Shown here: in pieces, positions 5,763 to 29,358 of the stretch | How positions within the stretch are numbered: the first letter of the stretch is position 1 | Layout: the number at the start of each line of letters is the position of its first letter | Source of the DNA: a virus | DNA length: 30,282 bases | IMG/VR virus record: IMGVR_UViG_3300023174_003828 | Span: 1 to 30,282 of that record | Direction: 5' to 3' (one strand) | Notes under the pieces: generated by a model | The model's database searches: none | The model's input: the letters and a program-made list of their open reading frames with translations, nothing else | Told to the model about the DNA's origin: nothing | Translations under genes and position numbers: made by a program

Positions 5763-6089
5763 TCAGGTTGGACTAAAACTTGACCCGCATCCGCATGTAG
5801 TTTCCGCATTAGGATTATTGATTTTGAACTGCGATCCGTTCAAATCTTCAACATAATCTATGCTTGCATTGTGTAAATATTGTGCGGAAATACTGTCTAC
5901 TAACATACTTAAAGATCCTGCAGGTATCTCAAAATCATCGTCATTTTGTTCTTCATCTATAGTAAAACCATATTGCATTCCACTACATCCTCCACCTTGA
6001 ACAAATACACGTATCTTAGCTTTTGGATTGTTTTCTTCTGCTAATATATCAGCTATCTTTATAGAAGCATTTTCTGTTATTTCTATCAT
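5763..6089 (-). CDS. erpA: A-type iron-sulfur carrier, ErpA/IscA family
   Basis: 108 residues covering the whole HesB/IscA domain. The three conserved cysteines are present: Cys35 in [12 protein letters not shown] and Cys99/Cys101 in TTCGCGSSF. The [14 protein letters not shown] ending is closest to ErpA of proteobacteria. Such proteins carry 2Fe-2S or 4Fe-4S clusters from the Isc or Suf scaffold to apo-enzymes in the cytoplasm. The start overlaps the stop of the superoxide dismutase gene by ATGA, so the two are translationally coupled. Together they form an iron-sulfur/oxidative-stress pair that would protect host metabolism or phage Fe-S enzymes during infection. Length is normal and no key residue is missing. 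Confidence 0.93.
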
Positions 6090-6673: not shown

Positions 6674-6883
6674 TTAACGTCGGCGCACGATACGGCCTTT
6701 AGTTAAGTCATATGGACTAAATTCTAATTCTACTGTATCCCCAAGTAGAACTTTAATATCATGCTGGCGCATCTTGCCAGAGATATAACCCATTACATTT
6801 GTGCCATTTACGGTGACACGGAACATGGCGTTAGGCAACACATCAGTTACCGTACCGTCCATTCGTAAACCTTCTTCTTTCAA
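6674..6883 (-). CDS. infA: Translation initiation factor IF-1
   Basis: 69 residues matching bacterial IF-1 (usually 71-73) along its full length: the S1-like OB fold with [39 protein letters not shown]-1 binds the 30S A site and helps IF-2 and IF-3 choose the initiator tRNA. The start is TTG at 6883, supported by AAGGAAAC at proper spacing; the first ATG (6862) would cut off conserved N-terminal residues. The TTG overlaps the stop of GIY-YIG gene I (TTGA), whose last codons contain the infA ribosome site. An IF-1 in a phage is uncommon, though translation factors are known from very large phages. It may steer initiation towards phage mRNAs. Confidence 0.95.
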
Positions 6884-7746
6884 TTTTGTTTCCTTTTTTT
6901 ACCTTCTTTAGAATTGTGAAAGACCCAGTCTTTCTGTTCATCTGAACCCAGTTGTGAATAAAAAATTTCTTTTTCTATTTTTTTAATTTCACCTATTTTA
7001 TTAATACATACAATTTTACCTTTTAGTTTTTCTTTAGTTTCAGCAGTAAACACTTGAAGTTTTCTTTTATCTTTTATTTTTTGTTTAGTTTCATCTTTCA
7101 TTGGTCCTTTATTTTGTTGGGCCAATTTCATTTTTTCAATGGTTTCGGGTGTTTTTTTCTTACCTAAAAGTTTTTCACTTATTTCAGGTCTTTTTCTACC
7201 TCTTAGTTTTTCAGCAGTTTTTTTGACTGATTCTGGGTTTCTTTTTTTCCCGATGTTGGCTTCTGATAGTAGTTTCTTTGTGGCATCGCTTCTTGGCAAT
7301 TTATTTCCGGGATTAACACCCTTTTTTCCTGTATTCCAAGGTAGTTGACCTTGTTTAGATGAAGATATTTTTTGTTTTGTTTCTTCTGTGTGAGGTTCAT
7401 AATTATTTCTACCAGTATCACCACCGTCTAAACCATTTTCTAATACTTGATTAGCCCAAATCTTTTTACCACTTTCATTTATAGCATTTACAATATTGTT
7501 TTCTTTTGAAAAGTTTACAGCAACTTCTACGCATTTTTCTTTATTTTCAAAAAAACCTATTATTTCAGTAGATATATCCTTGCCATGAATTTTTAAGTGG
7601 TTTAACCAATATTCACCTGACCCAGTATAAGAATAAGGATTAGATTTGACAGTTTTTCCAAAATATTTTAAACCGGTAATGTTATGCGTTTTAATATAAA
7701 GATAGGTAGGCATAAATTTCTTCATTAATATATTTATGCCTACCAT
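6880..7746 (-). CDS. GIY-YIG homing endonuclease I with NUMOD3 repeats
   Basis: Residues about 13-105 form a GIY-YIG-type nuclease domain (YLYIKTHN then KYFGKT). Residues about 118-245 are a Lys-rich string of NUMOD3-type DNA-binding units with TKQKIS, GKKR, PESVKK and KTPETIEKM motifs, as in free-standing phage homing enzymes. The N-terminal domain is nearly the same as that of GIY-YIG II (23493-24161), showing recent duplication or shared descent. Starts are ambiguous: ATG 7746 has GGAAA upstream, while ATG 7725 and ATG 7713 lie inside a 13-bp hairpin. The 3' end overlaps infA by TTGA, as expected of a mobile gene inserted between upstream genes and infA. It probably cleaves a related phage genome at the insertion site. 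Confidence 0.88.
7705..7744 (-). promoter_or_regulatory. 13-bp hairpin and late-promoter motif at GIY-YIG I start
   Basis: On the minus strand GGTAGGCATAAAT and ATTTATGCCTACC are perfect 13-bp inverted arms around a 14-base loop. CATAAATA (7738-7731) fits NATAAATA and straddles the 5' arm and loop. ATG 7713 lies in the 3' arm and ATG 7725 in the loop. A late transcript starting about 7 bases after the motif would lack the 5' arm. This is the arrangement known for the T4 I-TevI gene; here it is inferred from sequence. Confidence 0.65.
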
Positions 7747-8874: not shown

Positions 8875-9432
8875 TTATCTATTTAAATAAGGGCCATAAA
8901 TATTTTCTAATTCTTTAATAGTATGATTAGTATTGTTATCTTCATGTTTAACAGCAATTCCACCTGCATCACTCCAAGCATTTAAATACTTACCAAAATC
9001 ATCTACTAAAACATTCTGTTCATTGCCATTCTTTGCATATTTGTATTTTGCACTTGTAAAAATAGCATCACTACTTGTACCTGGATTGTATTTTTCTAAC
9101 CAGTCTTTTTTAGCCCTGATACTATCTTTAGCATATGGGCCACGTAATGGTGCACTTAATACAGTGAATGGAATCTTATGTTGAACTAGCCACTGTATGA
9201 TTCTCATACCACCTAATAATGGTTTCAGGTCATGGAAAAAATCGTACACTTTTTCTGGACTGCTATTTGCTAATTCTTCAATAGCTTGTTCAGGATGAGA
9301 AATTTCTTTGTAATTATTAAGACCATGCATCTTTGCCCAAGCTCCAAAAAAATCAGCTTGTACTCCGTCCATATCTAAGTATAGATGAGGCATTTTTTTG
9401 TTTGTGTCTTCCATTAATTCCCTAAGTTTCAT
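8875..9432 (-). CDS. HAD-like 5'(3')-deoxyribonucleotidase
   Basis: 185 residues with HAD motif I DMDGV (nucleophile Asp20, acid Asp22), motif II Ser93 in VLSAPLRG, and motif IV Asp144/Asp145 in LVDDFGKYL, followed by WSDAGGIAVKHED. This set fits the 5'-nucleotidase C-type branch of phage HAD enzymes, which remove phosphate from (deoxy)nucleoside monophosphates. The start at 9432 has GGAGAAGG at good spacing and shares one base with the upstream stop (TAATG). It probably works with the dCMP deaminase and MazG-like protein elsewhere in the window to adjust nucleotide pools. Substrate specificity is inferred. Confidence 0.82.
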   Translation of the reverse strand: MKLRELMEDTNKKMPHLYLDMDGVQADFFGAWAKMHGLNNYKEISHPEQAIEELANSSPEKVYDFFHDLKPLLGGMRIIQWLVQHKIPFTVLSAPLRGPYAKDSIRAKKDWLEKYNPGTSSDAIFTSAKYKYAKNGNEQNVLVDDFGKYLNAWSDAGGIAVKHEDNNTNHTIKELENIYGPYLNR

Positions 9433-9752
9433 TAACCTTCTCCGCTACTAGCAGACTTATCATCTTCTGATTTCTTAACATTGTTAATCTGCTTTTCTGC
9501 CTCTACACGTTCAAACTCAATTGTTTTACCACGTAAATGTAATACAGTATTAACCTTTTGATTCAATCGTATCAAGTCATTATCTAACATCCTGATACGG
9601 TCAATCAATGCTATCAAAACTGTATTAGCATCACTAATGACTGGCTTAACTTCTTTTGTGGCCCATTCCCAAACGTATTTGATAATGAATCCCATCCCAA
9701 CTGCCATAACAATTGGGAAGCCATATTTATTAATTAGTTCTACTATATCCAT
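9432..9752 (-). CDS. Small single-pass membrane protein
   Basis: 106 residues: a transmembrane helix at about 10-30 (YGFPIVMAVGMGFIIKYVW), then a helical segment (IALIDRIRMLDNDLIRLNQKVNTVL) and a charged, disordered tail. The layout 'GFPI + hydrophobic helix + IDRIRMLDNDLIRL' is repeated in the 93-aa protein at 10478-10759 (ALDNRVKTMNHDVIRID), so the two are diverged paralogues flanking two other genes. Small proteins of this kind sometimes act as holins or spanin-like factors, but no lysis enzyme is adjacent. The start follows the upstream stop by one base with no strong ribosome site, suggesting coupling. Confidence 0.72.
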   Translation of the reverse strand: MDIVELINKYGFPIVMAVGMGFIIKYVWEWATKEVKPVISDANTVLIALIDRIRMLDNDLIRLNQKVNTVLHLRGKTIEFERVEAEKQINNVKKSEDDKSASSGEG

Positions 9753-9753
9753 A

Positions 9754-10290
9754 TTATATCACTAATGGCACAATAAGCCAAATGCCTTGGGCTAATAGAA
9801 GTGCACCGAATGCACTAACACCAATACTACCCCAGAACATGCGCTTATCCACAGCTAAGATACTAGCGGAAAGTAACACAATAGCTAACTGAAATGCCAT
9901 TGCGGCAAATGTCAACCATGGTGTATGCTTCTTAGCTTCATCACGTTCTGCTTCAATCTTTAGTGCTTTAGCCATTAACTCTTTCTTACCCTCACCTTTA
10001 TCAGGTTCACTTTCATATCTTTCAATCTTAGCTTGTAGTTGTTCTTTACGCTTTGGATCGGTTGTAGCTTCTAGTTGTCCTTCAGCAATACTTTGTTTGA
10101 TAGATTTTGCTTGGTAAAAGTTCCAAGTATCATTTGCTTTAATAGTGTTACTTAATATTTTGCTACTAAATCCACTAGACATGTATGTTGTAATTGCCAA
10201 TAGTAATGCAATGACGGTGATGACCCATCCTGCTCTATCTTTAATTTGTGCTTCACGTTCACTGCGTGATAATGGTTTTACTTCTGTCAT
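9754..10290 (-). CDS. DUF4337-like membrane protein
   Basis: 178 residues from the preferred start. There is a first membrane helix at about 22-40 (WVITVIALLLAITTYMS), a long charged helical loop with WNFYQAKSIKQSIAE (the signature block of DUF4337), then two membrane helices at about 122-170. The function of this family is unknown. ATG 10290 is chosen because AAAGGAAA lies at proper spacing; the ATG 6 bases earlier would be too close. The start overlaps the end of the upstream 72-aa gene by about 30 bases. It lies between two paralogous small membrane proteins, which suggests a membrane complex, perhaps for envelope protection or lysis control; this is inference. Confidence 0.78.
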   Translation of the reverse strand: MTEVKPLSRSEREAQIKDRAGWVITVIALLLAITTYMSSGFSSKILSNTIKANDTWNFYQAKSIKQSIAEGQLEATTDPKRKEQLQAKIERYESEPDKGEGKKELMAKALKIEAERDEAKKHTPWLTFAAMAFQLAIVLLSASILAVDKRMFWGSIGVSAFGALLLAQGIWLIVPLVI

Positions 10291-10477
10291 TTTCATTTCC
10301 TTTTAAAATAAATTTTTCTAATCTATCAAGTTTAACTAATTTTTTAACTCCAGTTTCACTATCTTCAACTAATTTGAAATAGTCACCTTCTTCCCAACCT
10401 AATTTATGTATTGGTAATTCTTTGTCAAATACTAAACTATCTGGGGTTAAATCCCATGAATAATCATAATGATACAT
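10259..10477 (-). CDS. Small protein with AbrB-like LGWEEGD core
   Basis: 72 residues, cytoplasmic. The core HKLGWEEGDYFKLVED followed by LVKLDRLEKFI resembles the small AbrB-like protein at 8688-8867, though the DNA-binding part is not clear. Start 10477 is well supported by AGGAGAGACTAA before the ATG, which directly follows the upstream stop. The 3' end overlaps the next gene by about 30 bases. I have seen this pattern in hypothetical proteins of large phages; no function can be given. Confidence 0.68.
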   Translation of the reverse strand: MYHYDYSWDLTPDSLVFDKELPIHKLGWEEGDYFKLVEDSETGVKKLVKLDRLEKFILKGNENDRSKTIITQ

Positions 10478-10759
10478 TTAGTCTCTCCTAGCATCATTTT
10501 TACCGTCAGCACGTGCAATACGATCCGCATCTGGTCTTAATCCTAATGCATTACTAACAATTGTATCAATACGTATAACATCATGGTTCATGGTTTTTAC
10601 ACGATTATCAAGTGCCGTAATGATACCGGCCATGCCTTTTATAGACCCTAAAACACCCTGCAATAGTAGTTTAATAGTCAAATAAACAAAGTATCCACCG
10701 GCTAAAGCGACAGCGATTGGGAACCCCAAATCACCTATAATCTTAAAAATGTCTCCCAT
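10478..10759 (-). CDS. Small single-pass membrane protein, paralogue of 9432-9752
   Basis: 93 residues: a transmembrane helix at about 12-34 (GFPIAVALAGGYFVYLTIKLLL), then an amphipathic helical part (ITALDNRVKTMNHDVIRIDTIV) and a charged C-terminus. It shares the GFPI membrane helix and the 'LDNRV...DVIRI' helix with the 106-aa protein two genes downstream. It is the first gene of the minus-strand membrane group and faces the divergent curli block across an 83-base AT-rich gap. A GATAAATA late motif lies on its strand at 10831-10824. A holin-like or inner-membrane accessory role is possible but not shown. Confidence 0.72.
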   Translation of the reverse strand: MGDIFKIIGDLGFPIAVALAGGYFVYLTIKLLLQGVLGSIKGMAGIITALDNRVKTMNHDVIRIDTIVSNALGLRPDADRIARADGKNDARRD

Positions 10760-10842
10760 ATATGCTCTTTCTATGTATTACACTATATTATTTGATATAA
10801 AATGACTAAATATATGTATAATTATATTTATCGGAGCACATA
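10760..10842. promoter_or_regulatory. Divergent promoter region before the curli block
   Basis: A very AT-rich 83-base gap. On the plus strand TTGATA (10792-10797) and TATAAT (10817-10822) could drive csgF, but the 19-base spacer is long. The csgF ribosome site GGAG (10833-10836) is well placed. On the minus strand GATAAATA (10831-10824) fits the late motif and could drive the membrane-protein group. Boxes are seen; use is inferred. Confidence 0.5.
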
Positions 10843-11325
10843 ATGAAAAGAGGTATAGCAATAAGTACCCTGACGATGCTCACTATATCAGCCTTTGCGG
10901 CTGAATTACAGCATCAGTTTAATAGCCCTAGCTTCAGTGGTTCAGGATATAGTAGCCATGTCCTAACACTAAAACAGTTAGAAGATTTACAAAAAGACAA
11001 AAATAAAGCACTTGCAGACACATTAAAAGCAAAAGCTGAAAGTGAAGCACTAAACACCCCTCAAGCTAAGTTTTTAGCTAACTTAGAATCAAGAATTTAT
11101 AGTCAATTGGCAAAGCAATTGACTGATAGTATGTTTGGTGAAGGATCAACATGCACTACAAAGGGCGTTATTTGTGGATCTATACCTGATTTAGGTGGCA
11201 ATAGTATCACTTGGAAATTAGGTGATGGTAGTGATAATGGATTAATTATTATCACAATTACAAACAATGGCAATCCTTCACAAGTAACTATAATGAAAGT
11301 ACCAGCTGGAACATTTTATTTCTAA
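10843..11325 (+). CDS. csgF: Curli assembly factor CsgF
   Basis: 160 residues with a Sec signal peptide (cleavage near Ala19-Ala20, SAFAA|E). The mature start ELQHQFNSPSFSGSG matches the conserved 'FQFRNPNFGG' N-terminus of CsgF, the part that inserts into the CsgG pore in E. coli. The middle 'LESRIYSQLAKQL' helix and the C-terminal strand region (LIIITITNNGNPSQVTIMKVP) also fit; the protein is slightly longer than E. coli CsgF (138). In bacteria CsgF forms the outer ring of the secretion channel and couples nucleator to polymer growth. Its stop and the csgG start overlap as TAATG. GGAG before the ATG fixes the start. It is the first gene of the plus-strand block. Confidence 0.92.
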   Translation: MKRGIAISTLTMLTISAFAAELQHQFNSPSFSGSGYSSHVLTLKQLEDLQKDKNKALADTLKAKAESEALNTPQAKFLANLESRIYSQLAKQLTDSMFGEGSTCTTKGVICGSIPDLGGNSITWKLGDGSDNGLIIITITNNGNPSQVTIMKVPAGTFYF

Positions 11326-12326
11326 TGAATAAACTACTAATATTATCATTTGTTGTTATGTTATCAGGTTGTGCTTTAAGTAGCAAAACTAACAGTCTAG
11401 TTACAGGTGAACAATTTGATGAACCTATAGTTGAACAGAATGTTTATATGAAAAAGGACGATAATAAATTACGTCCTCCGGCTGATGGTCCAATTGCAAT
11501 TGCAGTATATGGATTTGCTGATAAGACCGGGCAACGTAAAAGCATTCAAAATATTGCTAGTTTAAGTTCAGCAGTAACTCAAGGTGCTGAAAGTTATCTA
11601 ATCAAAGCATTACAGGACGTAGGTGATGCTAAATGGTTTATTGTATTAGAACGTGTTGGATTAGAAAATATAATTAAAGAACGACAGATGATACGTCAAG
11701 CACGTGAGCTATATCAAGGTCGTGATGCCAAACCTTTACCACCAATGGTATTCGCCGGAGTATTAGTTGAAGGTGGTATTATTGGATATGATAGTAATAC
11801 ATTGACGGGCGGATCCGGAGTAAGATTATTAGGTATAGGAACAAGTACACAATATCAAAGTGATACAGTAACCGTCAATTTACGAACAGTAAGTGTTAGT
11901 ACCGGTGAAGTATTAACCAGTGTAACCGTTACAAAAACCGTATTAAGTTATATGGACAAAGTAGGTGTATTGCGTTTTAAGGCAGAAGGCACAAGTAGCG
12001 TTGAAGCTGAAACTGGTGCTAGTATTAATGAGAGTATTAATAAAGCCACAAGTATAGCTATACAAGCGGCAGTTATAGATACAATACGTGAAGGCGCTAG
12101 AAAAGGACATTGGAATTTTAAACAAGAGGAGAAAAAAAATGAGTTGGTTCAAGAGAAAACCCCACCTAAAGACACCCCCAAAATTACAACCGCACCATCT
12201 AAGCCCAATATCGGAAAAACTATTGAAGGAAACGAAAAAAGAAGTTTCTGGAGTAAAATCAAAGATGAAATTACAAGATTCACAATTGAGCATAGTGACG
12301 GAAAAGAAGAAGAATTAACAGATTAA
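11325..12326 (+). CDS. csgG: Curli secretion channel lipoprotein CsgG
   Basis: 333 residues. A lipoprotein signal with lipobox LSGC (Cys16) indicates acylation and outer-membrane insertion. The CsgG domain spans about 55-265 with IAIAVYGFADKTGQRK, FIVLERVGLENIIKERQ, GVLVEGGIIGYDSN and TVTVNLRTVSVSTGEVL, all family landmarks. CsgG forms a nonameric beta-barrel pore that exports curli subunits. The last about 65 residues are a Lys/Pro/Glu-rich extension not present in E. coli CsgG, probably periplasmic and disordered. It is coupled to csgF by a one-base overlap. Finding the export pore and CsgF together with two curlin-repeat proteins makes a functional amyloid export system likely. Confidence 0.95.
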   Translation: MNKLLILSFVVMLSGCALSSKTNSLVTGEQFDEPIVEQNVYMKKDDNKLRPPADGPIAIAVYGFADKTGQRKSIQNIASLSSAVTQGAESYLIKALQDVGDAKWFIVLERVGLENIIKERQMIRQARELYQGRDAKPLPPMVFAGVLVEGGIIGYDSNTLTGGSGVRLLGIGTSTQYQSDTVTVNLRTVSVSTGEVLTSVTVTKTVLSYMDKVGVLRFKAEGTSSVEAETGASINESINKATSIAIQAAVIDTIREGARKGHWNFKQEEKKNELVQEKTPPKDTPKITTAPSKPNIGKTIEGNEKRSFWSKIKDEITRFTIEHSDGKEEELTD

Positions 12327-12438
12327 CATATGTTTGTTAGATTATTCCTACAGTCTAACAAATATCTAAAAAAGAAGTAGGAAATAATAAGGGATAAATC
12401 CCAAGGAGCGTAATCAGGATAACTGATTACTGTAAAAA
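12327..12438 (+). promoter_or_regulatory. Structured leader before the first curlin gene
   Basis: This 112-base gap has three hairpins: TTTGTTAGA/TCTAACAAA (12333-12341 with 12354-12362); GGGA-TAAA-TCCC (12391-12402); and GTAATCAG/CTGATTAC (12410-12430, loop GATAA). The only good Shine-Dalgarno, AAGGAG (12403-12408), is between hairpins two and three, 30 bases from the ATG. Folding the third hairpin brings it to about 9 bases. This looks like a structured ribosome-binding site and possible control point. Confidence 0.65.
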
Positions 12439-13206
12439 ATGAAGCATTATAAAAATTATAAGACGGTGCTTTCAATATTAGCATTATCATTGCTAAGTGT
12501 AACTAGTATGGCACAGGTATTAAATACCGCAACAGGGCCAAATAAAGTTTATATTGAACAAATTGGTAACACTAATACTATTACACTTGAACAAACAGGT
12601 GGTACTAATAATATTGGAGGTGTAGCCAACGTTACCCCCAGCAATACAAACTATGCCACAATAACCGGCAATAGTAACGTTGTTGCTATGGTTCAAAAAG
12701 GTGATAACAACTTAGGTCAATATAATATTAGAGGTAACAATAACGAATATACAAGTACTGTTACTGGAAATAATAACAAAACTAAGTTAACTGTCGGTGA
12801 TGCCCAAAACACAAATAACCTACGTAACATTATTACTGAAACCATTACTGGTAATGACAATACTGTTATTCAAAATATTATTGGCAACGATATATTAAGT
12901 ACATTAACTATTACAGGTGACACCAATGAAGTTACTAAGGATCTAAAAAGCACTAACGGTAGAAGTGACATTAGTATCACCGGTGATAATAACAAACTTG
13001 ACATTGAACAAAATGATGCTAGTGGTGCGAACGGTCATAATTTGAAAAAAGTTATTCAAGGTAACACTAATAGCATTGTAACTCAACAGCAAGGTACTAA
13101 TGATACTACTATTGATATTAAAGCCAATGGTGACAATAATACCATTACAGTTCGTACAACAAGCGCGGCTACCATTGCAAACCCAAGAACAGCAGTAGCA
13201 AGATAA
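12439..13206 (+). CDS. Curlin-repeat amyloid subunit 1 (CsgA/CsgB-like)
   Basis: 255 residues: Sec signal peptide to about residue 25 (SVTSMAQ), then a serial beta-solenoid-like sequence with repeats of about 22-25 residues rich in Asn, Thr, Gly, Ile and Gln (YIEQIGNTNTITLEQTG, GDNNLGQYNI, GNNNKTKLTV, GDNNTITV). The Q-x-G-x-x-N pattern is the curlin signature. The mature N-terminus VYIEQIGN is shared with subunit 2 (14463-14930). It is preceded by the export genes csgF and csgG, so it is the likely major exported fibre subunit. Translation starts after an unusual hairpin-separated ribosome site. It is about 100 residues longer than E. coli CsgA. Confidence 0.85.
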   Translation: MKHYKNYKTVLSILALSLLSVTSMAQVLNTATGPNKVYIEQIGNTNTITLEQTGGTNNIGGVANVTPSNTNYATITGNSNVVAMVQKGDNNLGQYNIRGNNNEYTSTVTGNNNKTKLTVGDAQNTNNLRNIITETITGNDNTVIQNIIGNDILSTLTITGDTNEVTKDLKSTNGRSDISITGDNNKLDIEQNDASGANGHNLKKVIQGNTNSIVTQQQGTNDTTIDIKANGDNNTITVRTTSAATIANPRTAVAR

Positions 13207-13207
13207 A

Positions 13208-14296
13208 ATGCGTAAGTTTGTGTTGTTCTTATGCTTGTTTACAAGTATTAGTACTTGGGCAAGTATAGGAAATGTATCAGAATTAACCGGGGCAGCCGGC
13301 GAAATATCCCGCGGTAAACAAAAAGTTGTGGGTAATAAAGGCGCCGGCATTGAAAGCAACGATATATACACTACTAGAAACGGCACAGTACAATTAGCCT
13401 TTAAGGATGATACAAAAGTAAAAATTACAGAAAACAGTCGTCTACTAATAGATGATTTTGTTTTTGACCCTAACAAAAGTGATGCAGGTAGATTAGCACT
13501 TAAAGTTGGTATGGGAACAGTACGTTATGCTAGTGGACAAATAGCAAAAACAAACACACAACAAGTAGCAATTAAAACACCAACTGCAACTATTGCAGTT
13601 CGTGGTACAGATTTTACAATGACAGTTGATGAAGCAGGACAGTCATTAATAGTTTTAGTTCCAAGTTGTAAAGACAATGAAAAAGTAAAAGATTACGAAT
13701 TAGAAGAAAACAAATGTAGAGTAGGACGCATTGAAGTAGAGACCTTAGTTGGTAAAGTTATATTGGACCAAGCATTTCATGGTACATTTGTAGCAAGTAA
13801 TAACATTTCACCTACCACACCGGTCGTTATGAATACAATTGAAGCAAAACTAACAAACAACTTGATTATTGTAAAGCCAATGGAGATTGTTAAAGCAGTT
13901 AATAATCAAAATGGTAAAAGTAAAAAAGAACAACAAGAACTAGAAGAAGAACAAAACAATAGATTAACCAACATAGTTAAAAAACAAAGTGTTGAAGAAC
14001 AAGCAAAGATTATTGCCGCTAATAGTTTTAAACCCGATCCAAACTGTAATGCAACAACTACTGTTTGTATCTTATGGGAAAAAAGTGACGGTGAATTATT
14101 AGCTAGAGGTAGAGCTATAGCGTATCGTAATAGTGAAAACGAACATTATGCTGAAGTTAAAACACAGGGTTATATGTCAAACACACTAGTTACCATTGTA
14201 CACAATGACACCATAGCATCAGAACTTTTAGGTGATGGTCAGCCCGGTGGAAATATAGTGTATATCAAACAAACTGCGGGATTAAAAAGAAGATGA
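13208..14296 (+). CDS. Secreted FecR-domain protein
   Basis: 362 residues with a Sec signal peptide (cleavage near residue 18, STWAS). Residues about 20-160 form a FecR domain (TGAAGEISRGKQ, GTVQLAFKDDTKVKITENS, IAVRGTDFTMTVD). A Lys/Glu/Gln-rich coiled region (about 235-270) and a C-terminal beta domain follow. Stand-alone secreted FecR proteins are often found beside CHASE2-cyclase genes in bacteria, and one is present in this operon. It starts one codon after the curlin gene and ends in an ATGA overlap with a 57-aa gene. Its job is unknown; periplasmic or surface binding linked to curli or to the cyclase sensor is inferred. Confidence 0.85.
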   Translation: MRKFVLFLCLFTSISTWASIGNVSELTGAAGEISRGKQKVVGNKGAGIESNDIYTTRNGTVQLAFKDDTKVKITENSRLLIDDFVFDPNKSDAGRLALKVGMGTVRYASGQIAKTNTQQVAIKTPTATIAVRGTDFTMTVDEAGQSLIVLVPSCKDNEKVKDYELEENKCRVGRIEVETLVGKVILDQAFHGTFVASNNISPTTPVVMNTIEAKLTNNLIIVKPMEIVKAVNNQNGKSKKEQQELEEEQNNRLTNIVKKQSVEEQAKIIAANSFKPDPNCNATTTVCILWEKSDGELLARGRAIAYRNSENEHYAEVKTQGYMSNTLVTIVHNDTIASELLGDGQPGGNIVYIKQTAGLKRR

Positions 14297-14466
14297 CTAG
14301 TAAAGAGTTACAAATAATGTACCAACAATGGTGCCAGGGAAATGAGGATCACGGATTTCGTTGGTTAGACTTTGTTGAAATGGCAGCAAGACAATTCAAA
14401 CATCCAGAAAGTGAAGTACTTAGAGAGTTACAGAAACATTATTGGTTCGTTAAAAATAACAAATGA
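14293..14466 (+). CDS. 57-aa unrecognised cytoplasmic protein in the amyloid operon
   Basis: A short reading frame joined to both neighbours by ATGA overlaps (start over the FecR stop at 14293, stop over the next ATG at 14463), strong evidence that it is translated. The protein is helical with FRWLDFVEMAARQF and EVLRELQKHYWFVK, and has no signal peptide or membrane helix, unlike all its neighbours up to this point. I do not recognise the family. It may be a cytoplasmic chaperone or regulator for curlin export, or only a passenger. Confidence 0.75.
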   Translation: MTSKELQIMYQQWCQGNEDHGFRWLDFVEMAARQFKHPESEVLRELQKHYWFVKNNK

Positions 14467-14930
14467 AAAAGATACTACTATCATTATTATTTTCTAGTTC
14501 AGCATTTTCTCAAGTGTATATTGAGCAAATAGGTAACTTCAATGTTGTTAATGTAGAACAGATTGGTAACGGAATCAACTATATTAACTACTATAGTGCT
14601 GGCTCTAATAATAATGTAACCATGGAACAGCGTAGCACCGGTGGCAATAAATCAATACAAGCTACTGTAAACAATAGTAACAACACAGTTCTGTTACAAC
14701 AAAAAGACAACGGAAATCATTCTATCATATTAAACTTAGTTGGTGGACATAAAGATGTAGACATATTACAGCAGGGAAGTGCTGGACATCAAGCAAATGT
14801 AACATTGACCGGATTACCATCTGGTATAAGTTTAAGTCAAAGTGGATCTACCCAGCAATTATACTCATTAACCTTTAACTGTGCTATACAGGGTGGATGT
14901 GCCAAATTGTCAGTACAACAGGGCCAATAG
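14463..14930 (+). CDS. Curlin-repeat amyloid subunit 2 (CsgB/CsgA-like)
   Basis: 155 residues: signal peptide to about residue 16 (SSSAFSQ), then VYIEQIGNFNVVNVEQIGNG and further Gln/Asn/Gly repeats of about 22 residues (NNNVTMEQ, NNTVLLQQKDNG, KDVDILQQGSAG). The size and repeat number are close to E. coli CsgA and CsgB (151). The C-terminus has a cysteine pair (FNCAIQGGCAKL) that could form a disulfide. With the larger curlin protein upstream this gives a two-subunit set; which one nucleates and which polymerises cannot be told. Start ATG overlaps the 57-aa gene stop. Confidence 0.85.
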   Translation: MKKILLSLLFSSSAFSQVYIEQIGNFNVVNVEQIGNGINYINYYSAGSNNNVTMEQRSTGGNKSIQATVNNSNNTVLLQQKDNGNHSIILNLVGGHKDVDILQQGSAGHQANVTLTGLPSGISLSQSGSTQQLYSLTFNCAIQGGCAKLSVQQGQ

Positions 14931-14937
14931 ATAAATA
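14930..14937 (+). promoter_or_regulatory. Late-promoter motif GATAAATA
   Basis: GATAAATA overlaps the curlin-2 stop codon region and lies 42 bases before the Fn3 gene start. It fits NATAAATA of T4-like phages. A TGGTG-GTTT-CACCA hairpin (14950-14963) and the ribosome site AAGGAAA follow. This would allow separate late expression of the downstream gene. Confidence 0.5.
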
Positions 14938-14979
14938 TATGAATATTAATGGTGGTTTCACCAATAAGGAAAGAATAAA

Positions 14980-16026
14980 ATGCAAATAGGAAGCGGAATA
15001 ACATTTACTAGTGGCCTTACTTTAACTGCACCCCCAACAGCACCATCGGCACCTACAATAGGTACAGCAACAGCTACCGGTGCAACAACAGCAACAGTGA
15101 CCTTCACTGCTCCTGTTAATAATGGCGGTGCAACAATTACAAGCTATACAGCAACAAGTAGTCCTGGTAGTATTACTGGTACACTAAGTCAAGCCGGATC
15201 CGGAACAATCACTGTTTCTGGATTAACTGCGAGTACAAGTTATACATTTACAGTAACTGCTACTAATAGTGTGGGTACAAGTAGTGCAAGTAGCGCAAGT
15301 AATAGCATTACAACAGAAAGTGCGGCAGTAGGACAACAAGAATTTACTACAACAGGAACATTTTCATTTACAGTCCCTGCAGGGGTGTCGTCTATATGCG
15401 CTGTACTAGTTGGTGGAAGAGGTACTAGTCAAAACGGCGGAGCCAAGGGAGGCAGAGGTGGAGCAGGACTACGATATATCAATAACTTAGCAGTTATACC
15501 CGGTGATGTATATACAGTGGTAGTGGCAGGCGCGGGTGGCAATTCGTCTTTAAGTAAAGGGGGCAATACTTACGTGCAAGCAAACTCCGGCGGCAGTAGT
15601 GGGGCAGGTGGTACCGGAACTGCTTTTGGAGCTGGTCCTTTTGGTGGTACAATAGGTGGTGGTAATGGCGGAGCTGGAGGGCCAGCGCCAGGAACTGGTT
15701 TTGCTGCCACTGGAGGAGCCGGAGGGTATTCAGGTGACGGAGGGTATGGTGGTGGCGGTGGACAAGATGGCGGAGCCGGATCCGGAGGAGCCGGAGGTGG
15801 TGGCGGTGGTTCAAGTCTTAACACTGTTGGACCGGGCAATGGAGGATTAGTGGGCATTTATGGACAAGGTGCTAGTGGTGCCGGTGGTACTGGTGGTGGT
15901 GCGCCTACATCAGGTGGTGCTGGATCTGGTGGTGGCTTTGGTGGATTCCCGGGTGGTGACGGAGCAGTTCGTATTATTTGGGGATCAGGTCGTGCCTTCC
16001 CATCAACTAACACCGGTAATTTATAA
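14980..16026 (+). CDS. Fibronectin-III plus glycine-rich fibre/adhesin-like protein
   Basis: 348 residues without a signal peptide. Residues about 20-112 form one fibronectin type III domain (PTAPSAPTIGTATATG, ASTSYTFTVTATNSVG). A short beta segment (GTFSFTVPAGVSSICAVLVGG) leads into a glycine-rich region (about 145-340) with GGAGG, GGGGG and GAGG runs, as in phage fibre and adhesin proteins that may pack as polyglycine-II helices. Because it lacks an export signal while the curli proteins have one, it is more likely a virion component than a curli part. A late-promoter motif just upstream supports separate late expression. The ribosome site is AAGGAAAGAATAAA. Confidence 0.75.
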   Translation: MQIGSGITFTSGLTLTAPPTAPSAPTIGTATATGATTATVTFTAPVNNGGATITSYTATSSPGSITGTLSQAGSGTITVSGLTASTSYTFTVTATNSVGTSSASSASNSITTESAAVGQQEFTTTGTFSFTVPAGVSSICAVLVGGRGTSQNGGAKGGRGGAGLRYINNLAVIPGDVYTVVVAGAGGNSSLSKGGNTYVQANSGGSSGAGGTGTAFGAGPFGGTIGGGNGGAGGPAPGTGFAATGGAGGYSGDGGYGGGGGQDGGAGSGGAGGGGGGSSLNTVGPGNGGLVGIYGQGASGAGGTGGGAPTSGGAGSGGGFGGFPGGDGAVRIIWGSGRAFPSTNTGNL

Positions 16027-16035
16027 ACTATTTGT

Positions 16036-18087
16036 ATGATTAAAAAAATAATTCTCAGTCCTTGGACAGCACTACTAACACTAGTGCTGATTCTTTCTGT
16101 GCGTATCGCAGATCCTCAATTCGTAGAATCAGTTCGTTTACGTTATTTTGATACTCTTATCACTAATAAAACCCCAACAGAAAACAACATCTATACAGTA
16201 AATATAGATGAAGCAACACTAGACAAGTATGGTCAATGGCCACTACCTCGTAATGAATACGCAAAAATAATAGAAGATTTATATAAGCGCAACGCTGGTC
16301 TTGTTGTGTTCAATGTACTAATGCCTGATACTGATAGAAACGGTCAAGACAGTAAGTTAGCAAATACAATGAAACAGTATCCTGTTATTCTTCCCAATGT
16401 ACCTAGCGATAAAACAAAAAACACTCCACGTAATCCAGGTGCGGCTGTACTAGCCCCTGAGTGGCTAGATCAAATAGTTCAATATCCCGGTATCATTGCT
16501 AACGTGCCTTTATTAGAAAACAGTGCGTATGGTGTAGGTACTGTTAATACATTACCAGAGATTGATGGTGTCAATAGACGTATACCATTGATTGTCAGTG
16601 TTGATGGTAAACTCTATCCAAGTTTAAGTATGGAAGTATTAAGAGTAGCCGCAGATGATACAACATTCCAAGTTAAACTAAGCGAGAATGGTGTAGAGAA
16701 AATGCGTATACCAAAGTTCGGTCCTATTACTACTGACAACTTAGGACGTATTTGGATTGATTACAGTCAACAAAGTAAATCAGTAAGTTTGATGGATCTA
16801 CCAAAAGACTTCGGTGGTGCTATTGTTATTGTAGGTTTAACAGCAAGTGGATTAAACAACCCAGTACCAACAAGTAAAGGTAGTGTATGGCCGCATGATG
16901 TTCAAGCAAGTGTAATAGGTACAATGTTTAACAAAGTTGTTATTGTAAGACCTGATTATGCAGATGGTGTAGAACTTATCGCTATACTAGTGTTAGGTTT
17001 ATTAGTTATATTTTTATCAAGGTGGACATATGCTTTTATCCCAGTTATTCTTGTTCTTACTTCTGGTCATTTTATTGCGTCATATCTATTCACATCCAAT
17101 CTATGGCTCTATGATATTACCGCCCCTATTATTGGCGTTGGTTTGGTTTATCTTCACGCTTATACTGTTAAGTTTGTAAGTGAATTCTTACAAAAGCAAC
17201 AGATTAAAAAACAGTTTGGTAGTTACGTTAATCCAACAATCGTTGAACGACTACAGAAAGATCCTAGTCTAATTAAACTTGGTGGTGAGAAACGTGAATT
17301 ATCTATCGTTATGACTGACTTGCGTGGCTTCACTAGCTTGGGCGAATCATTTGGCGATGATGTTGAAGGACTAACACAGATTATGAATGACTACATGACT
17401 GCACTAAGTGTTCCTGTATTGAAGAACGATGGTACATTAATTAAGTTTATTGGTGATGCAAGTTTGCATGTCCATGGCGCCCCATTAGATGATGTTAAAC
17501 ATGCGGTAACTGCTGTTAATACCGCTATGCAAATGATTGATGCTATTGAAGAATTCAATAAAGAGTTGACAGCTAATGGTCGTCCACCAGTTGGTATGGG
17601 CGCAGGTGTTAATACTGGTGAAACGTTGATTGGTAACATTGGTGCTAAGACTAAGTTTGGTTATGATGTATTAGGCGACAGTGTTTCTACTGCGGCTAGA
17701 TTAGAAGGACAAACTAAAGGATATGGTGTATTATGTATCATTGGCCCTAATACTAATGAACAGGTTAAAGATGAAATATTTACACTAGAACTAGATTGTA
17801 TTGCTGTAAAGGGTAAAACAATAGGATTAAATATCTTTACCCCATTAAAGACTGATCCAAATAGTATGGCGGAATATCTATCAGCACGTGAGATACATGA
17901 TTTGATGATAGATTACTACCGTGAGCAGAAATGGGACCAAGCATTACATATGATAGACCAACTTAAGGGTGAATTTGATTCGCATATGGACCACTATTAT
18001 GATATAATGATAGAACGAATAGGAGAACTACGTGAAAGCAATTTACCTAACGATTGGGATGGTGTGTATAGGGCTACTAGTAAGTAA
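16036..18087 (+). CDS. CHASE2-domain membrane adenylate cyclase (class III)
   Basis: 683 residues. One N-terminal membrane helix (about 8-22), an extracytoplasmic CHASE2 sensor (about 28-300; IDEATLDKYGQWPLPRNEY and IVGLTASGL are typical), two or three membrane helices (about 312-378), a linker, then a class III cyclase domain (about 420-605). Metal residues Asp428 and Asp474 and ATP-selecting Lys470 and Asp544 are present. Arg555 of the transition-state pair is kept, but its usual Asn partner is Ser551 (GDSVSTAARLE), which may lower activity. It would make cAMP in the cytoplasm in response to a periplasmic signal, perhaps with the FecR-type protein upstream. A membrane cyclase in a phage-like context is very unusual. 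Confidence 0.92.
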   Translation: MIKKIILSPWTALLTLVLILSVRIADPQFVESVRLRYFDTLITNKTPTENNIYTVNIDEATLDKYGQWPLPRNEYAKIIEDLYKRNAGLVVFNVLMPDTDRNGQDSKLANTMKQYPVILPNVPSDKTKNTPRNPGAAVLAPEWLDQIVQYPGIIANVPLLENSAYGVGTVNTLPEIDGVNRRIPLIVSVDGKLYPSLSMEVLRVAADDTTFQVKLSENGVEKMRIPKFGPITTDNLGRIWIDYSQQSKSVSLMDLPKDFGGAIVIVGLTASGLNNPVPTSKGSVWPHDVQASVIGTMFNKVVIVRPDYADGVELIAILVLGLLVIFLSRWTYAFIPVILVLTSGHFIASYLFTSNLWLYDITAPIIGVGLVYLHAYTVKFVSEFLQKQQIKKQFGSYVNPTIVERLQKDPSLIKLGGEKRELSIVMTDLRGFTSLGESFGDDVEGLTQIMNDYMTALSVPVLKNDGTLIKFIGDASLHVHGAPLDDVKHAVTAVNTAMQMIDAIEEFNKELTANGRPPVGMGAGVNTGETLIGNIGAKTKFGYDVLGDSVSTAARLEGQTKGYGVLCIIGPNTNEQVKDEIFTLELDCIAVKGKTIGLNIFTPLKTDPNSMAEYLSAREIHDLMIDYYREQKWDQALHMIDQLKGEFDSHMDHYYDIMIERIGELRESNLPNDWDGVYRATSK

Positions 18088-18358
18088 CTCCTACTCACAG
18101 GAAATGAAGGACAAGGTTGAAATAGAGTTACCTTGTTATGATTCAACTGCGTTATTCAAAACATTAAGAGAAAATCACAAAGAGATGCCCATAATGATGG
18201 GTAAAGCTAGTGATGATGTTAAGTCTATAGTCAGTATTTGGATAAATCCAATTGATAACAATTGGACTATAATAGCAACTAAAAATGATCTATCATGTGT
18301 TGTAGGATTGGGGAACGACATGAAACTCGTACCCTATAAGAAAGGACCTAATATATGA
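18032..18358 (+). CDS. Small secreted protein, unrecognised
   Basis: 108 residues starting at GTG 18032, supported by AGGAG six bases upstream, so the gene overlaps the cyclase end by 56 bases in another frame. The N-terminus is a signal peptide (AIYLTIGMVCIGLLVSNSYS|Q). The mature part is about 85 residues with two cysteines (Cys in ELPCYDS and DLSCVVG) that could pair, and the segment IVSIWINPIDNNWTIIATKN. This looks like a small periplasmic protein; no family is recognised. It is joined to the downstream peptidase by ATGA. A role as ligand or modulator of the CHASE2 cyclase or of the peptidase is speculation from position. Confidence 0.72.
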   Translation: MKAIYLTIGMVCIGLLVSNSYSQEMKDKVEIELPCYDSTALFKTLRENHKEMPIMMGKASDDVKSIVSIWINPIDNNWTIIATKNDLSCVVGLGNDMKLVPYKKGPNI

Positions 18359-19089
18359 TTAAAAAACTAATAGCAATATTATCATTGTCTATCTGTTCAG
18401 CATATGCAGATACACCATTAACTGCACAAGCCTGGTTAGTAGCTGATAATAATGGGAAGATTCTTGAAGGGTCTAATACTACTGAGATTCGTAGCATAGC
18501 AAGTATTACTAAATTAATGACAGCAATGGTTGTATTAGATAGTGGTCAATCATTAACTGAAATACTTCCTAAAAAGCTATACAATAAACAATTAAGTAGA
18601 GAAACATTAATTGATTTGGCGATTGTAAAAAGTGATAATAATGCCGCAAAATTGTTATGTGATTATTATCCCGGTGGATATAAAAATTGCATAGAAGCGA
18701 TGAATGCCAAAGCAATATCATTGCAGATGGGTAACAGTAATTTTACTGATCCTACTGGTAGATATCATACTAATGTAAGTACTGCACAAGATTTAATCAA
18801 ATTAGTATTGGCAGCCAGCACCTACCCATTAATTGTTCACGCAAGTAATATGGATGCTGTACGTTGGAGTATTAATAAGAAGAAAAATATAGAATTTAGA
18901 AACACAAACAGTTTAGTTGGTAATGGTTATAAATTCTTAGTAAGTAAAACAGGTTTTATCAATAAAGCAGGTGGATGTATTGTAATGATGATTGATACTG
19001 CAAATGGAATCAGGACCGTAGTCCTGTTGGGTTCAAAGAATACTAAAACACGTATCCCAGAAGCAAAGATGTTATCTATGCTTTATTAA
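18355..19089 (+). CDS. pbpG: PBP7-like D-alanyl-D-alanine endopeptidase (S11 family)
   Basis: 244 residues: signal peptide (to about residue 18, SAYAD), then a serine DD-peptidase domain with all three motifs: Ser50-Ile-Thr-Lys53 (SxxK), Ser93-Asp-Asn95 (SxN) and Lys198-Thr-Gly200 (KTG). The segment YYPGGYKNCIEAMNAKA matches E. coli PBP7 (PbpG) more than PBP5/6, and it lacks the long C-terminal anchor region of those. PBP7 cuts D-Ala-mDAP cross-links in the periplasm. Here it could open the wall for the curli channel, aid lysis or remodel the envelope after infection. It is the last gene of the plus block; its stop overlaps the convergent minus gene. Confidence 0.9.
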   Translation: MIKKLIAILSLSICSAYADTPLTAQAWLVADNNGKILEGSNTTEIRSIASITKLMTAMVVLDSGQSLTEILPKKLYNKQLSRETLIDLAIVKSDNNAAKLLCDYYPGGYKNCIEAMNAKAISLQMGNSNFTDPTGRYHTNVSTAQDLIKLVLAASTYPLIVHASNMDAVRWSINKKKNIEFRNTNSLVGNGYKFLVSKTGFINKAGGCIVMMIDTANGIRTVVLLGSKNTKTRIPEAKMLSMLY

Positions 19090-22297: not shown

Positions 22298-22459
22298 TTA
22301 AAATCCAATCATATTAGTTATATATATAAAAACAATTGCAAAATTAAATGCAAAAACTAACCCATCCATATAATACATCCATTTAGGGTTTTGTGTATAA
22401 TCTTTGGTAACTAATAAATAACCAAAGAATAATGTAACAAGAACATTAATTAGTATCAT
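22298..22459 (-). CDS. 53-aa two-helix membrane protein
   Basis: A short frame with two hydrophobic helices (about 2-17, ILINVLVTLFFGYLLV; about 33-50, GLVFAFNFAIVFIYITNM) joined by a short polar turn (TKDYTQNPKWMYY). Start ATG 22459 has AGGAAACAACA upstream and makes an ATGA overlap with the cupin-like gene stop, so it is very likely translated. Two-helix hairpins of this size can be holins, antiholins or small regulators; no lysis gene is adjacent. Confidence 0.72.
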   Translation of the reverse strand: MILINVLVTLFFGYLLVTKDYTQNPKWMYYMDGLVFAFNFAIVFIYITNMIGF

Positions 22460-22971
22460 TGTTGTTTCCTATTCATTTTAGACACAACATATTTTTCGTG
22501 ATAGGGTTTCCAATCAGTCAAGTAATGTTCATGTTTAATCCAACGATGTATGCCTTTCTTTGCTTCCACTAGAAAGCCCCAGTCACGTTGTTGACGGCCC
22601 ATAAAAAATAGTGTTGTTGCAGGGGTATCACCATCAAGTTCAAGCCAATGATATTCACCTGCACCACGTTTGATGATAGATCCAGGACCACGCCATGTTT
22701 GAAATTCTGTAATCATTTTACCTTTATCATCAAATACTGGTGTATGCTCCCAATAACCACCTTTCAATACAATTGTCATATAGGGCCAAGGATGGTCATG
22801 AAAGATAGGATCATCACTACGAACAATCTTATGTAATGTAACATTCAATGGGAACCAACTACGGTCTTTTAGAAATAAGTAGTAGCGGTGCATATAGTCC
22901 TCACCTGTCCTACGATCAGGTATCAAACGATAACGATCTAACTTATTCATAATTTTGTGAAATAAACTCAT
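22456..22971 (-). CDS. Cupin-fold protein
   Basis: 171 residues. The core FHDHPWPYMTIVLKGGYWEHTP has His58 and His60, with Glu75 and a later His108 (GAGEYHWLEL) as probable metal ligands; the GPGSIIKRGAGEYH strand is the second cupin motif. Proteins like this are common in large phages and have no proven substrate. First 25 residues are basic and may belong to the fold or be an alternative start region (second ATG at 22950). A sigma70-like promoter lies just upstream (22995-23023), so this is the first gene of the long minus operon running to 19086. Confidence 0.75.
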   Translation of the reverse strand: MSLFHKIMNKLDRYRLIPDRRTGEDYMHRYYLFLKDRSWFPLNVTLHKIVRSDDPIFHDHPWPYMTIVLKGGYWEHTPVFDDKGKMITEFQTWRGPGSIIKRGAGEYHWLELDGDTPATTLFFMGRQQRDWGFLVEAKKGIHRWIKHEHYLTDWKPYHEKYVVSKMNRKQQ

Positions 22972-23413: not shown

Positions 23414-23492
23414 TATCTTTTGGTCACCTAGTTTAATTTAGATATCCAAAAACTTCGTATATATTGTGCATGTGTCCGTGTTAAATATTAAC

Positions 23493-24161
23493 ATGTTTAA
23501 ACCTACCTACTTATATATTAAAACACATAATATCACTGGACTAAAATACTTTGGTAAGACAACAAAGGACCCGCAGAAATATGATGGTTCAGGAATTAAG
23601 TGGCTTAATCACTTAAACGTACACGGAAAAGATGTAAAAACAGATATCCTAGGATATTATACGGATAAGGAAGAATGTTTAAGAATTGCATTAGAGTTCA
23701 GCCACAAAAATAATATAGTAGAATCATCAAATTGGGCAAATTTGCGAGTTGAATCATTGGATGGCGGAGACACAAGTAATACTGAAAATTTTAAAAATTG
23801 GATACCTAGACTAATACAAGAAAACAAAAAAAGACGATGGTGGAATAATGGAGTTTCTCAGGTCTTTGTTGACGTACCACCCGATGATAACTTTTTAAAA
23901 GGTAGATTACCTTTTAATAACTTAGGTGCAAAAAAAGGTTCTGCTATGCAAAAAGGAAAAATTTGGGTAAATAATGGTATTACTGAGTATATGACAGATA
24001 CCGAAGTATCTACAGGATTTTTAAAAGGTAGGTTAAAAGAAAAGGCGTTTAATAGACAGCAAGGCCTACACACTGTAGGAACCAAATGGTGGAATAATGG
24101 AATGAAATCAACTATGGCAAAAGAGTGTCCTGGTCCTGAGTGGACTCTGGGTAGACTTTAA
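23493..24161 (+). CDS. GIY-YIG homing endonuclease II with WWNNG repeats
   Basis: 222 residues from ATG 23493; the frame can be extended to GTG 23466 but without support. Residues 4-92 are a GIY-YIG-type domain ([30 protein letters not shown]) almost identical in key blocks to GIY-YIG I at 6880. The C-terminal half differs completely: three units beginning W(W/V)NNG and ending in (F/W)LKGRL or WTLGRL at about 116-140, 158-181 and 199-222, in place of NUMOD3. They probably bind DNA. The gene is oriented against its neighbours and its stop overlaps the metallophosphatase stop, as expected for a recent insertion. A short TGTTAA/TTAACA hairpin covers the start. Confidence 0.85.
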   Translation: MFKPTYLYIKTHNITGLKYFGKTTKDPQKYDGSGIKWLNHLNVHGKDVKTDILGYYTDKEECLRIALEFSHKNNIVESSNWANLRVESLDGGDTSNTENFKNWIPRLIQENKKRRWWNNGVSQVFVDVPPDDNFLKGRLPFNNLGAKKGSAMQKGKIWVNNGITEYMTDTEVSTGFLKGRLKEKAFNRQQGLHTVGTKWWNNGMKSTMAKECPGPEWTLGRL

Positions 24162-25081: not shown

Positions 25082-25110
25082 ATTTTAACACAGGAATAAA
25101 TTTATGTCAA
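25082..25110 (-). promoter_or_regulatory. Strong sigma70-type promoter of the metallophosphatase
   Basis: The minus strand reads TTGACA (25110-25105), 17 bases, TAAAAT (25087-25082). Expected start near 25075, some 15 bases before ATG 25060. The -35 box overlaps the first codons of the divergent GIY-YIG III gene. Confidence 0.75.
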
Positions 25111-25796
25111 TCTATTGTGTATATCTAACTATATATATGGGTAAAAAGTTACCCATGTTTTATATTGGATCTTCTACCTTAACCAAAATTAAGAATGGAT
25201 ATAGGGGGTCTGTATCTAGTAAAAATTATGGTAAAATTTGGAAAGAAGAATTGAAAAATAACCCTGAATTATTTAAAACAAAAATAATATCATTACATGA
25301 TTCTAGGGAACAAGCATTTGATAAAGAAGAAAAACTACAAAAAATATTAAATGTAGTTAAAAACTCATTATACATAAACAAATCATTTGCCAATTCTAAA
25401 TTTAGTTTGAAACAGCATTCGGCTTGGACAAGGGATAAGTTTAAAACTAGGGTGCCATGGAACAAAGGAAAAACTGATATTTACTCTGATACCACATTAG
25501 AGAAAATGAGTTTTTCTAAAAAAGGTAAATCAAGGCCATGCAGTGATGAAACTAAAATAAAATTAAGTGGACCAAACCCAGCAAAAGCAAATGTTGGTGA
25601 AAAAAATGGTATGTTCAACAAAACTCACACTGATGTAGTTAAAAATAAATTAGGGGCAGAAGCCTCTAAGAGGTTCAAAGGTAAATCATATGAAGAATTA
25701 TATGGTCCTGAAAAGGCGGCTGAACTAAAAAAAATAAGGTCTGAGAGAATGAAAGAGATTAGGAAAAATAAAAAGGATATTTTATTACTTTCATAA
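25104..25796 (+). CDS. GIY-YIG homing endonuclease III with NUMOD3 repeats
   Basis: 230 residues. The nuclease domain (about 3-95) has YCVYL and FYIGSST as the GIY and YIG blocks and the acidic helix FDKEEKLQ. It is followed by NUMOD3-type units (VPWNKGKTD, SDETKIKLSG, NGMFNKTHTDVVKNKL) and a terminal SYEELYGPEKAAELKKIRSER helix common in phage homing enzymes. It is only distantly related to GIY-YIG I and II. Start ATG 25104 has AGGA at 8 bases. Plus orientation between minus genes, with overlapping stops at its 3' end, indicates an inserted mobile gene. An 8-bp hairpin occurs early in the coding region (25137-25156). Confidence 0.88.
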   Translation: MSIYCVYLTIYMGKKLPMFYIGSSTLTKIKNGYRGSVSSKNYGKIWKEELKNNPELFKTKIISLHDSREQAFDKEEKLQKILNVVKNSLYINKSFANSKFSLKQHSAWTRDKFKTRVPWNKGKTDIYSDTTLEKMSFSKKGKSRPCSDETKIKLSGPNPAKANVGEKNGMFNKTHTDVVKNKLGAEASKRFKGKSYEELYGPEKAAELKKIRSERMKEIRKNKKDILLLS

Positions 25797-28703: not shown

Positions 28704-28763
28704 GTCCTTTATTTAACTGTCTAAGATTGTATTATAGACCCAAAATGATTTATTGTCAAATTT
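28704..28763 (-). promoter_or_regulatory. Repeated promoter/leader, copy 4
   Basis: The minus strand has TTGACA (28759-28754), 17 bases, TATAAT (28736-28731), and the same leader with AAAGGACTC. Slightly more diverged in the spacer than copies 1-3. The clpP stop lies at its upstream edge. Confidence 0.9.
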
Positions 28764-29358
28764 AGGACATGTTGCGTTTTTGCAACACACTATCAGCTAG
28801 GCCATACGCCACTGCCTCATTTGCACTCATAAAAAAGTCACGTTCCATGTCTTTTGCAAGTTCCTCAAACGTCTTTCCGGCACTATTGTGGTCAACATAG
28901 ATTTGTGTTAGAGATTTTTTCATAGCCAAAATCTCTTTAACTTGAATTTCCATATCAGTAGCTTGACCACGTGCTCCACCACTTGGTTGATGAATCATAT
29001 GTCGTGCATTGGGAAGGATCATTCGTTTGCCTTTTGCACCTGCTTGACCTAACAAACTACCCATTGAACAAGCTTGACCCATTACAATAGTTTGTACATC
29101 TGGTTTAATAAATTGCATACAATCATAGATTGCCATACCAGCTGTTACTGAGCCACCTGGACTATTGATATAGATACTGATGTCCTTATCTGAATCTTCA
29201 CTTTCCAAATATAGTAGTTGAGCAACGATTAGATTTGCCATTTGGTCATGTACCTCACCTTCAAGCAAAATAACACGGTCACGTAGTAAACGACTGTAAA
29301 TGTCATAACTACGTTCGCCTTTACTTGTTTGTTCTAATACCATTGGGACTAAGCTCAT
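28762..29358 (-). CDS. clpP: ClpP-type ATP-dependent protease subunit
   Basis: 198 residues, full bacterial ClpP length. Catalytic triad: Ser98 (GQACSMGS), His123 (MIHQPSGG) and Asp170 (KDMERDFF). [16 protein letters not shown] and GLADSVL are family blocks. N-terminal residues lack an obvious propeptide. ClpP rings degrade proteins fed by ClpX or ClpA, so the phage subunit would work with host unfoldases or form mixed rings; no unfoldase gene is in the window. Start 29358 has AAGGAAACAAT upstream. Its likely promoter lies in the first codons of the divergent gene. Confidence 0.94.

Follow-up and report, generated by a model that had tools for sequence, protein, structure and literature searches.

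Curli genes in phages have called for an explanation since 2020, and they do so again in a 30,282-base virus fragment from IMG/VR (IMGVR_UViG_3300023174_003828, positions 1–30,282 of the record; all of it hereafter called the window), in which ten plus-strand genes at 10843–19089 stand between minus-strand phage genes on either side. The first-pass annotation had proposed that these genes form an apparently undescribed unit joining amyloid export, FecR, a cyclase and a wall endopeptidase. ORF calls agreed with its strand layout, and the sign of the GC skew reverses across the block, whose genes run in the order csgF, csgG, curlin 1, FecR, a 57-aa ORF, curlin 2, an fn3/Gly-rich gene, a CHASE2 cyclase, orf108 and an S11 peptidase (Table 1). 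Pfam families bore out the identities given for the amyloid-export, FecR and cyclase genes. By eye, 8 of the 10 proteins (all except the 57-aa and the fn3/Gly-rich proteins) have membrane helices, a lipobox or a signal peptide, the same count as before, which supports the earlier idea that the phage carries a set of exported proteins directed at the envelope. Neither CsgC nor CsgD was seen within the block, a tRNA scan of the window found none, and no closely similar DNA turned up when the phage collection was searched with the window.

The core of the block turned out to be known. CsgF and CsgG have been reported in pelagimyophages and as absent from freshwater fonsimyophages (Zaragoza-Solas et al., 2020; PMC7029224), and Wittmers et al. 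(2022; PMC9599517) describe pelagiphages with CsgF, CsgG, CsgA/B, FecR, a second CsgA/B and an adenylate cyclase in that order. HTVC008M and the four Melnitz strains gave tblastn matches to both the cyclase and CsgG, and both phages have the window's order, csgF-csgG-curlin-FecR-curlin-cyclase, so the core unit was already described and the claim of novelty does not stand. The pelagiphage cluster also resembles the window's module in having no CsgE, and small genes precede it; it differs in that the window's kin are large T4-like phages and the window's membrane-protein pair lies on the opposite strand. Two Acinetobacter records matched the cyclase domain only (tblastn), and OR851715.1, a 1.5-kb "Salmonella phage" record encoding CsgG, is likely host DNA. 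Viral contigs were scanned with three queries, yielding 80 loci for the cyclase, 14 for csgG and 24 for the peptidase, some of which share a contig, and the core order recurs in about 75 viral loci. With bacterial curli operons (Escherichia coli csgBAC/DEFG; Caulobacteraceae csgF-csgG-curlin) the phage module has CsgG, CsgF and curlin repeats in common, whereas it adds FecR and the CHASE2 cyclase, and CsgE was found in 0 of 16 phage records, several of which are fragments (the E. coli control was positive).

The block does not appear or vanish as a unit at the same borders among relatives. Close relatives without csg genes (e.g., L105 and L109) have a nucleotidase, DUF4337, a 51-aa MSWFK gene, the 57-aa gene, orf108 and the peptidase, with variable fibre genes interspersed along this order. 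Moreover, 22 of the 24 loci found with the peptidase query are without csg genes, and among 78 csg- and cyclase-bearing loci the peptidase was present in 19 and none was seen in 59. This gene order and these counts indicate that the ten-gene block is a curli module plus resident genes; the borders first drawn, and the endopeptidase as a fixed part of the block, had therefore to be given up, since endopeptidase, orf108 and the 57-aa gene stay put in the close csg-minus relatives. The 57-aa ORF, joined by ATGA overlaps to FecR and curlin 2, is not part of the curli module, orf108 is not specific to it, and the fn3/Gly-rich gene is a variable fibre-like insert, genes like it occupying the same site in csg-minus relatives. 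The MSWFK ORF, an eleventh small ORF of the block, sits in another frame within the 3′ end of csgG, whose tail is variable. In distant csg-plus relatives (L012, L013 and L029) csgG-curlin 1-FecR-curlin 2 are contiguous, suggesting that the MSWFK and 57-aa resident genes probably became interspersed among the module genes in the window's lineage. As for the peptidase itself, the SxxK, SxN and KTG motifs are all present, and the name endopeptidase was well chosen, as its nearest solved structures and its NCBIfam model are D-Ala-D-Ala endopeptidases (the score is below the NCBIfam curated cut-off). Several loci (L021, L026, L030, L046, L049, L078 and L089) have inserts between curlin 2 and the cyclase that by eye resemble an LpxH-type phosphoesterase, a glycosyltransferase and an ATP-grasp protein.

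Table 1. Features of the curli locus and its surroundings in the window.
Feature	Position	Strand	Evidence
106-aa paralogous membrane protein, second partner	9432..9752	-	same family as the 93-aa protein
72-aa protein, often between the membrane pair	10259..10477	-	homologues in about half of loci
93-aa bitopic membrane protein, partner of curli block	10478..10759	-	weak YvrJ-like N-terminus
CTAAATA, T4-late-like promoter element before csgF	10806..10812	+	motif match
csgF	10843..11325	+	Pfam PF10614, E = 1e-7
csgG, outer-membrane lipoprotein pore	11325..12326	+	PF03783, E = 3e-51; lipobox Cys; alignment
59-aa ORF (MSWFK...), resident phage gene	12139..12318	+	own gene in csg-minus relatives
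curlin 1, secreted fibre subunit	12439..13206	+	curlin repeat, E = 4e-7; AlphaFold beta-solenoid
secreted FecR-domain protein	13208..14296	+	Pfam PF04773, E = 7e-11
57-aa resident phage ORF	14293..14466	+	same locus in csg-minus relatives
curlin 2, minimal headless form	14463..14930	+	aligns with 48 second curlins
fn3/Gly-rich tail-fibre-like protein	14980..16026	+	Pfam fn3, PHROG tail families; no signal peptide
CHASE2 adenylate cyclase	16036..18087	+	Pfam CHASE2, E = 9e-40; Guanylate_cyc, E = 3e-17
orf108, small secreted protein paired with peptidase	18032..18358	+	kept in csg-minus relatives
S11 D-Ala-D-Ala endopeptidase (PBP7 type), resident gene	18355..19089	+	Pfam Peptidase_S11, E = 3e-36; PDB 6azi, 6muq

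The module also extends beyond the block. Two small paralogous membrane proteins, both outside the original borders, accompany all csg- and cyclase-bearing loci with enough flank and are missing only where contigs end early, a constant association that is new here. Scanning with the 93-aa protein gave 80 viral loci; csg, FecR or cyclase genes were present in all 39 of those with both 10-kb flanks complete, and the 11 loci without such genes all lie on contigs ending early. The pair occurs in four arrangements relative to the module, upstream or downstream and on either strand. With mean identities of 0.77 and 0.73 to the window's copies, the pair is better conserved than every module protein (cyclase 0.60; CsgG 0.53; CsgF and FecR 0.47; curlin 1 0.35), and we conclude that it is part of the curli module. 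Among annotated phages the 93-aa protein was found only in HTVC008M and Melnitz, where it is labelled hypothetical. Wittmers et al. (2022; PMC9599517) place a "histidine kinase" before the pelagiphage curli set; in HTVC008M and Melnitz that place is taken by a 92–115 aa protein of the pair family (divergent in the window), which is probably the protein so named, matched by position only. No kinase domain was found in the window's pair (Pfam) or in the HTVC008M and Melnitz counterparts (NCBIfam), and Pfam YvrJ scored 16.8 and 10.2 bits for the pair, below its cut-off of 29.5.

Upstream of csgF the motif [TCG]TAAATA was found in 50 of 62 loci, compared with 3.8% of random windows, often with CTA directly after it. 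CTA after TAAATA is a feature of T4 late promoters. Before the internal genes the motif is rare (csgG: 0/61; curlin: 6/119; FecR: 5/64; cyclase: 21/85; other ORFs: 14%), and this distribution of a putative T4-late-like promoter, also new here, supports one transcript starting at csgF. An exact TATAAATA occurred once in the window against 6.9 expected, indicating that the window does without the canonical T4 late octamer, and no TAAATA was found immediately upstream of gp23 in the large phages, so it is only the resemblance to the T4 motif that points to late expression of the operon. An FNR-like dyad (TTGAT-N4-ATCAA) lies directly before CTAAATA in the window (10780–10812) and upstream of csgF in L004, L007, L012, L013 and L029; it is perfect in L004, L007 and L012 of the window's lineage and degraded in the window, and over all loci it was not clearly above background, so we rejected it. 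A sigma-70 scan gave 60 promoters against 45 by chance, and no conclusion was drawn from the sigma-70 and terminator scans.

The AlphaFold model of curlin 1 is a beta-solenoid (pLDDT 82), for which Foldseek gave no significant match and VIA-align returned general beta-solenoids. When aligned with 48 others, the window's curlin 2 shared with them the invariant Gln/Gly of the repeats and a C-terminal pair of Cys; the Pfam curlin repeat hit 28 of these 49 second curlins, the window's copy giving no hit on its own. Second curlins are modular proteins whose length ranges from 155 to 716 aa; their C-terminal part is curlin and their N-terminal part varies, and the 49 non-redundant copies include heads of the PA14 (8), F5/8-type C (6–7) and GLEYA (2) families, while the window's copy is headless. 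In the model of the L026 second curlin (mean pLDDT 68; head mostly 65–87), the head fold matches the sugar-binding PA14 domain of an RTX adhesin, Flo1/Flo5 flocculins and Epa adhesins. Second curlins with such lectin-like heads are new here, and among the papers searched we found none treating PA14, curlin and phage together. The yeast proteins would be comparable in having a lectin-like PA14-type head on aggregating repeats, but the phage repeats are curlin repeats and the window's copy is headless, so the likeness is one of architecture only. The gp018 protein of HTVC008M combines PA14 with curlin repeats, making surface display and aggregation directly testable in a cultured phage.

The window's cyclase keeps both metal-binding Asp residues, the adenine-selecting Lys and the Asp/Thr of class III adenylate cyclases; the transition-state Asn is Ser here and in many relatives. 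No phage cNMP-binding protein was found in 16 records, suggesting that cAMP would act through the host. In 12 loci (L008, L014, L016, L017, L019, L020, L025, L027, L028, L047, L051 and L067) the C-terminal part of the cyclase (model 560–680) also occurs as a free-standing copy of 99–132 aa, upstream of csgF in most of them, and this copy is perhaps a cyclase regulator. The nearest bacterial cyclases are alphaproteobacterial, and one Caulobacteraceae genome has csgF-csgG-curlin-curlin-FecR-CHASE2 cyclase among ordinary chromosomal genes (L122), with the same linkage in a second (G068; L205 and L213), that is, in 2 of the 299 genomes searched. In the light of these new loci, the published view that bacterial curli operons lack FecR and cyclase needs qualification. 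The loci agree with the phage module in gene set and order, and in the cyclase tree, which gives no direction of transfer between the two, phages and Caulobacteraceae fall into a single group separate from 61 other cyclases; the loci differ in lying on the chromosome, flanked by genes for a TonB receptor, a peptidase and a glycosyltransferase, and in that the membrane pair was not seen directly upstream of csgF. The first-pass annotation had named a core chromosomal locus, with a bacterial contig breakpoint in the window, as one counter-case: the chromosomal locus does exist in these two genomes, but we found no breakpoint, and bacterial contamination was ruled out, the flanks being phage genes in common with large phages.

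We think it fairly likely, judging from the sequences, that the locus is a late phage operon that places curli-type fibres on the infected cell, together with FecR/CHASE2 sensing and the membrane pair. In its favour we set the protein families, the order shared by HTVC008M, Melnitz and about 75 viral loci, the solenoid model of curlin 1, the heads of second curlins and the fold match of the L026 head, the late-like element ahead of csgF, the linkage and conservation of the membrane pair, the retained cyclase residues and the absence of CsgE from the 16 records. In this view phages would have their own form of type VIII (curli) secretion, expressed late in infection, in which the curlins would enter the periplasm by Sec and leave through the CsgG pore with CsgF to form an amyloid fibre on the cell, the second curlin acting as the display subunit, with a sugar-binding head in many relatives. 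Periplasmic FecR and the inner-membrane CHASE2 cyclase may form a sensing pair that raises cAMP, probably inherited from an alphaproteobacterial operon, and the membrane pair may work with the system, perhaps as an inner-membrane gate or a regulator replacing the missing CsgE. The likely benefit would be an altered surface of the infected cell, for aggregation with future hosts or for blocking other phages. We counted against such fibres the unclumped Melnitz cultures (Buchholz et al., 2022; PMC9004378), the headless curlin 2 of the window, the missing CsgE, the lack of cNMP-binding proteins in the 16 phage records and the lack of a significant Foldseek match for curlin 1.

Lysis control, in which the CsgG/F pore, a holin-like membrane pair and the endopeptidase would time lysis and the curlins be secondary, was proposed in the form of a pinholin idea by the same authors (PMC9004378) and would suit the late-like promoter element, a small bitopic pair with weak YvrJ similarity and the adjoining PBP7-type endopeptidase. 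We regard it as unlikely: the block retains its curlins and FecR, head domains are exchanged, most csg loci are without the endopeptidase, CsgG forms its pore in the outer membrane, and the similarity to YvrJ falls far short of the Pfam cut-off. It is improbable, too, that during infection an ungated CsgG pore serves to admit large nutrients or siderophores, which FecR and cAMP would help to sense, as put forward by Zaragoza-Solas et al. (PMC7029224) and Wittmers et al. (PMC9599517); the absence of the CsgE gate from the 16 records and the FecR domain are consistent with uptake, but it leaves two conserved curlins, CsgF and the lectin heads unexplained, and no TonB-dependent receptor or sigma factor stands beside FecR in the block. 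That unrelated morons merely came together in a hypervariable site, without joint function, is very improbable even though the site does contain variable fibre genes and small resident genes, given the csgF-csgG-curlin-FecR-cyclase order kept among phages at only 35–60% protein identity and across viral loci, the same order in two bacterial genomes, the single promoter-like element at the operon head and the 39/39 linkage of the membrane protein.

The curli module appears to belong to large phages as well. Four csg-bearing records of 328–372 kb (behind L047, L050, L090 and L096) have a T4-type major capsid gene, a setting for the curli module that is new here. The window's flank gene order is common to records of 352 and 525 kb that also have this capsid gene (L100 and L103), which makes a large T4-like phage the probable source of the window. 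Presence of the module in large phages beyond the known marine isolates means that it is not a marine SAR11 oddity; we infer that the large-phage carriers are freshwater phages from their low identity to marine isolates, with no habitat record seen. More tentatively, and with more doubt than confidence on our part, large T4-like freshwater phages might have the infected cell form amyloid fibres with interchangeable lectin heads as a phage-made flocculation organelle, driven by a two-protein membrane device that would be the true core of the module. For the question of why phages carry curli genes, the membrane pair and the swapped heads are two new handles. Elsewhere in the window, HesB/IscA-like (5763–6089) and IF-1-like (6674–6883) genes recognized by eye, together with cysteine-dioxygenase-like (22456–22971) and ClpP-like (28762–29358) genes, fit a large phage. 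GIY-YIG-like genes were also seen by eye at 6880–7746, 23466–24161 and 25104–25796, and homologues of the first of these adjoin the cyclase in some large-phage loci (L089–L097).
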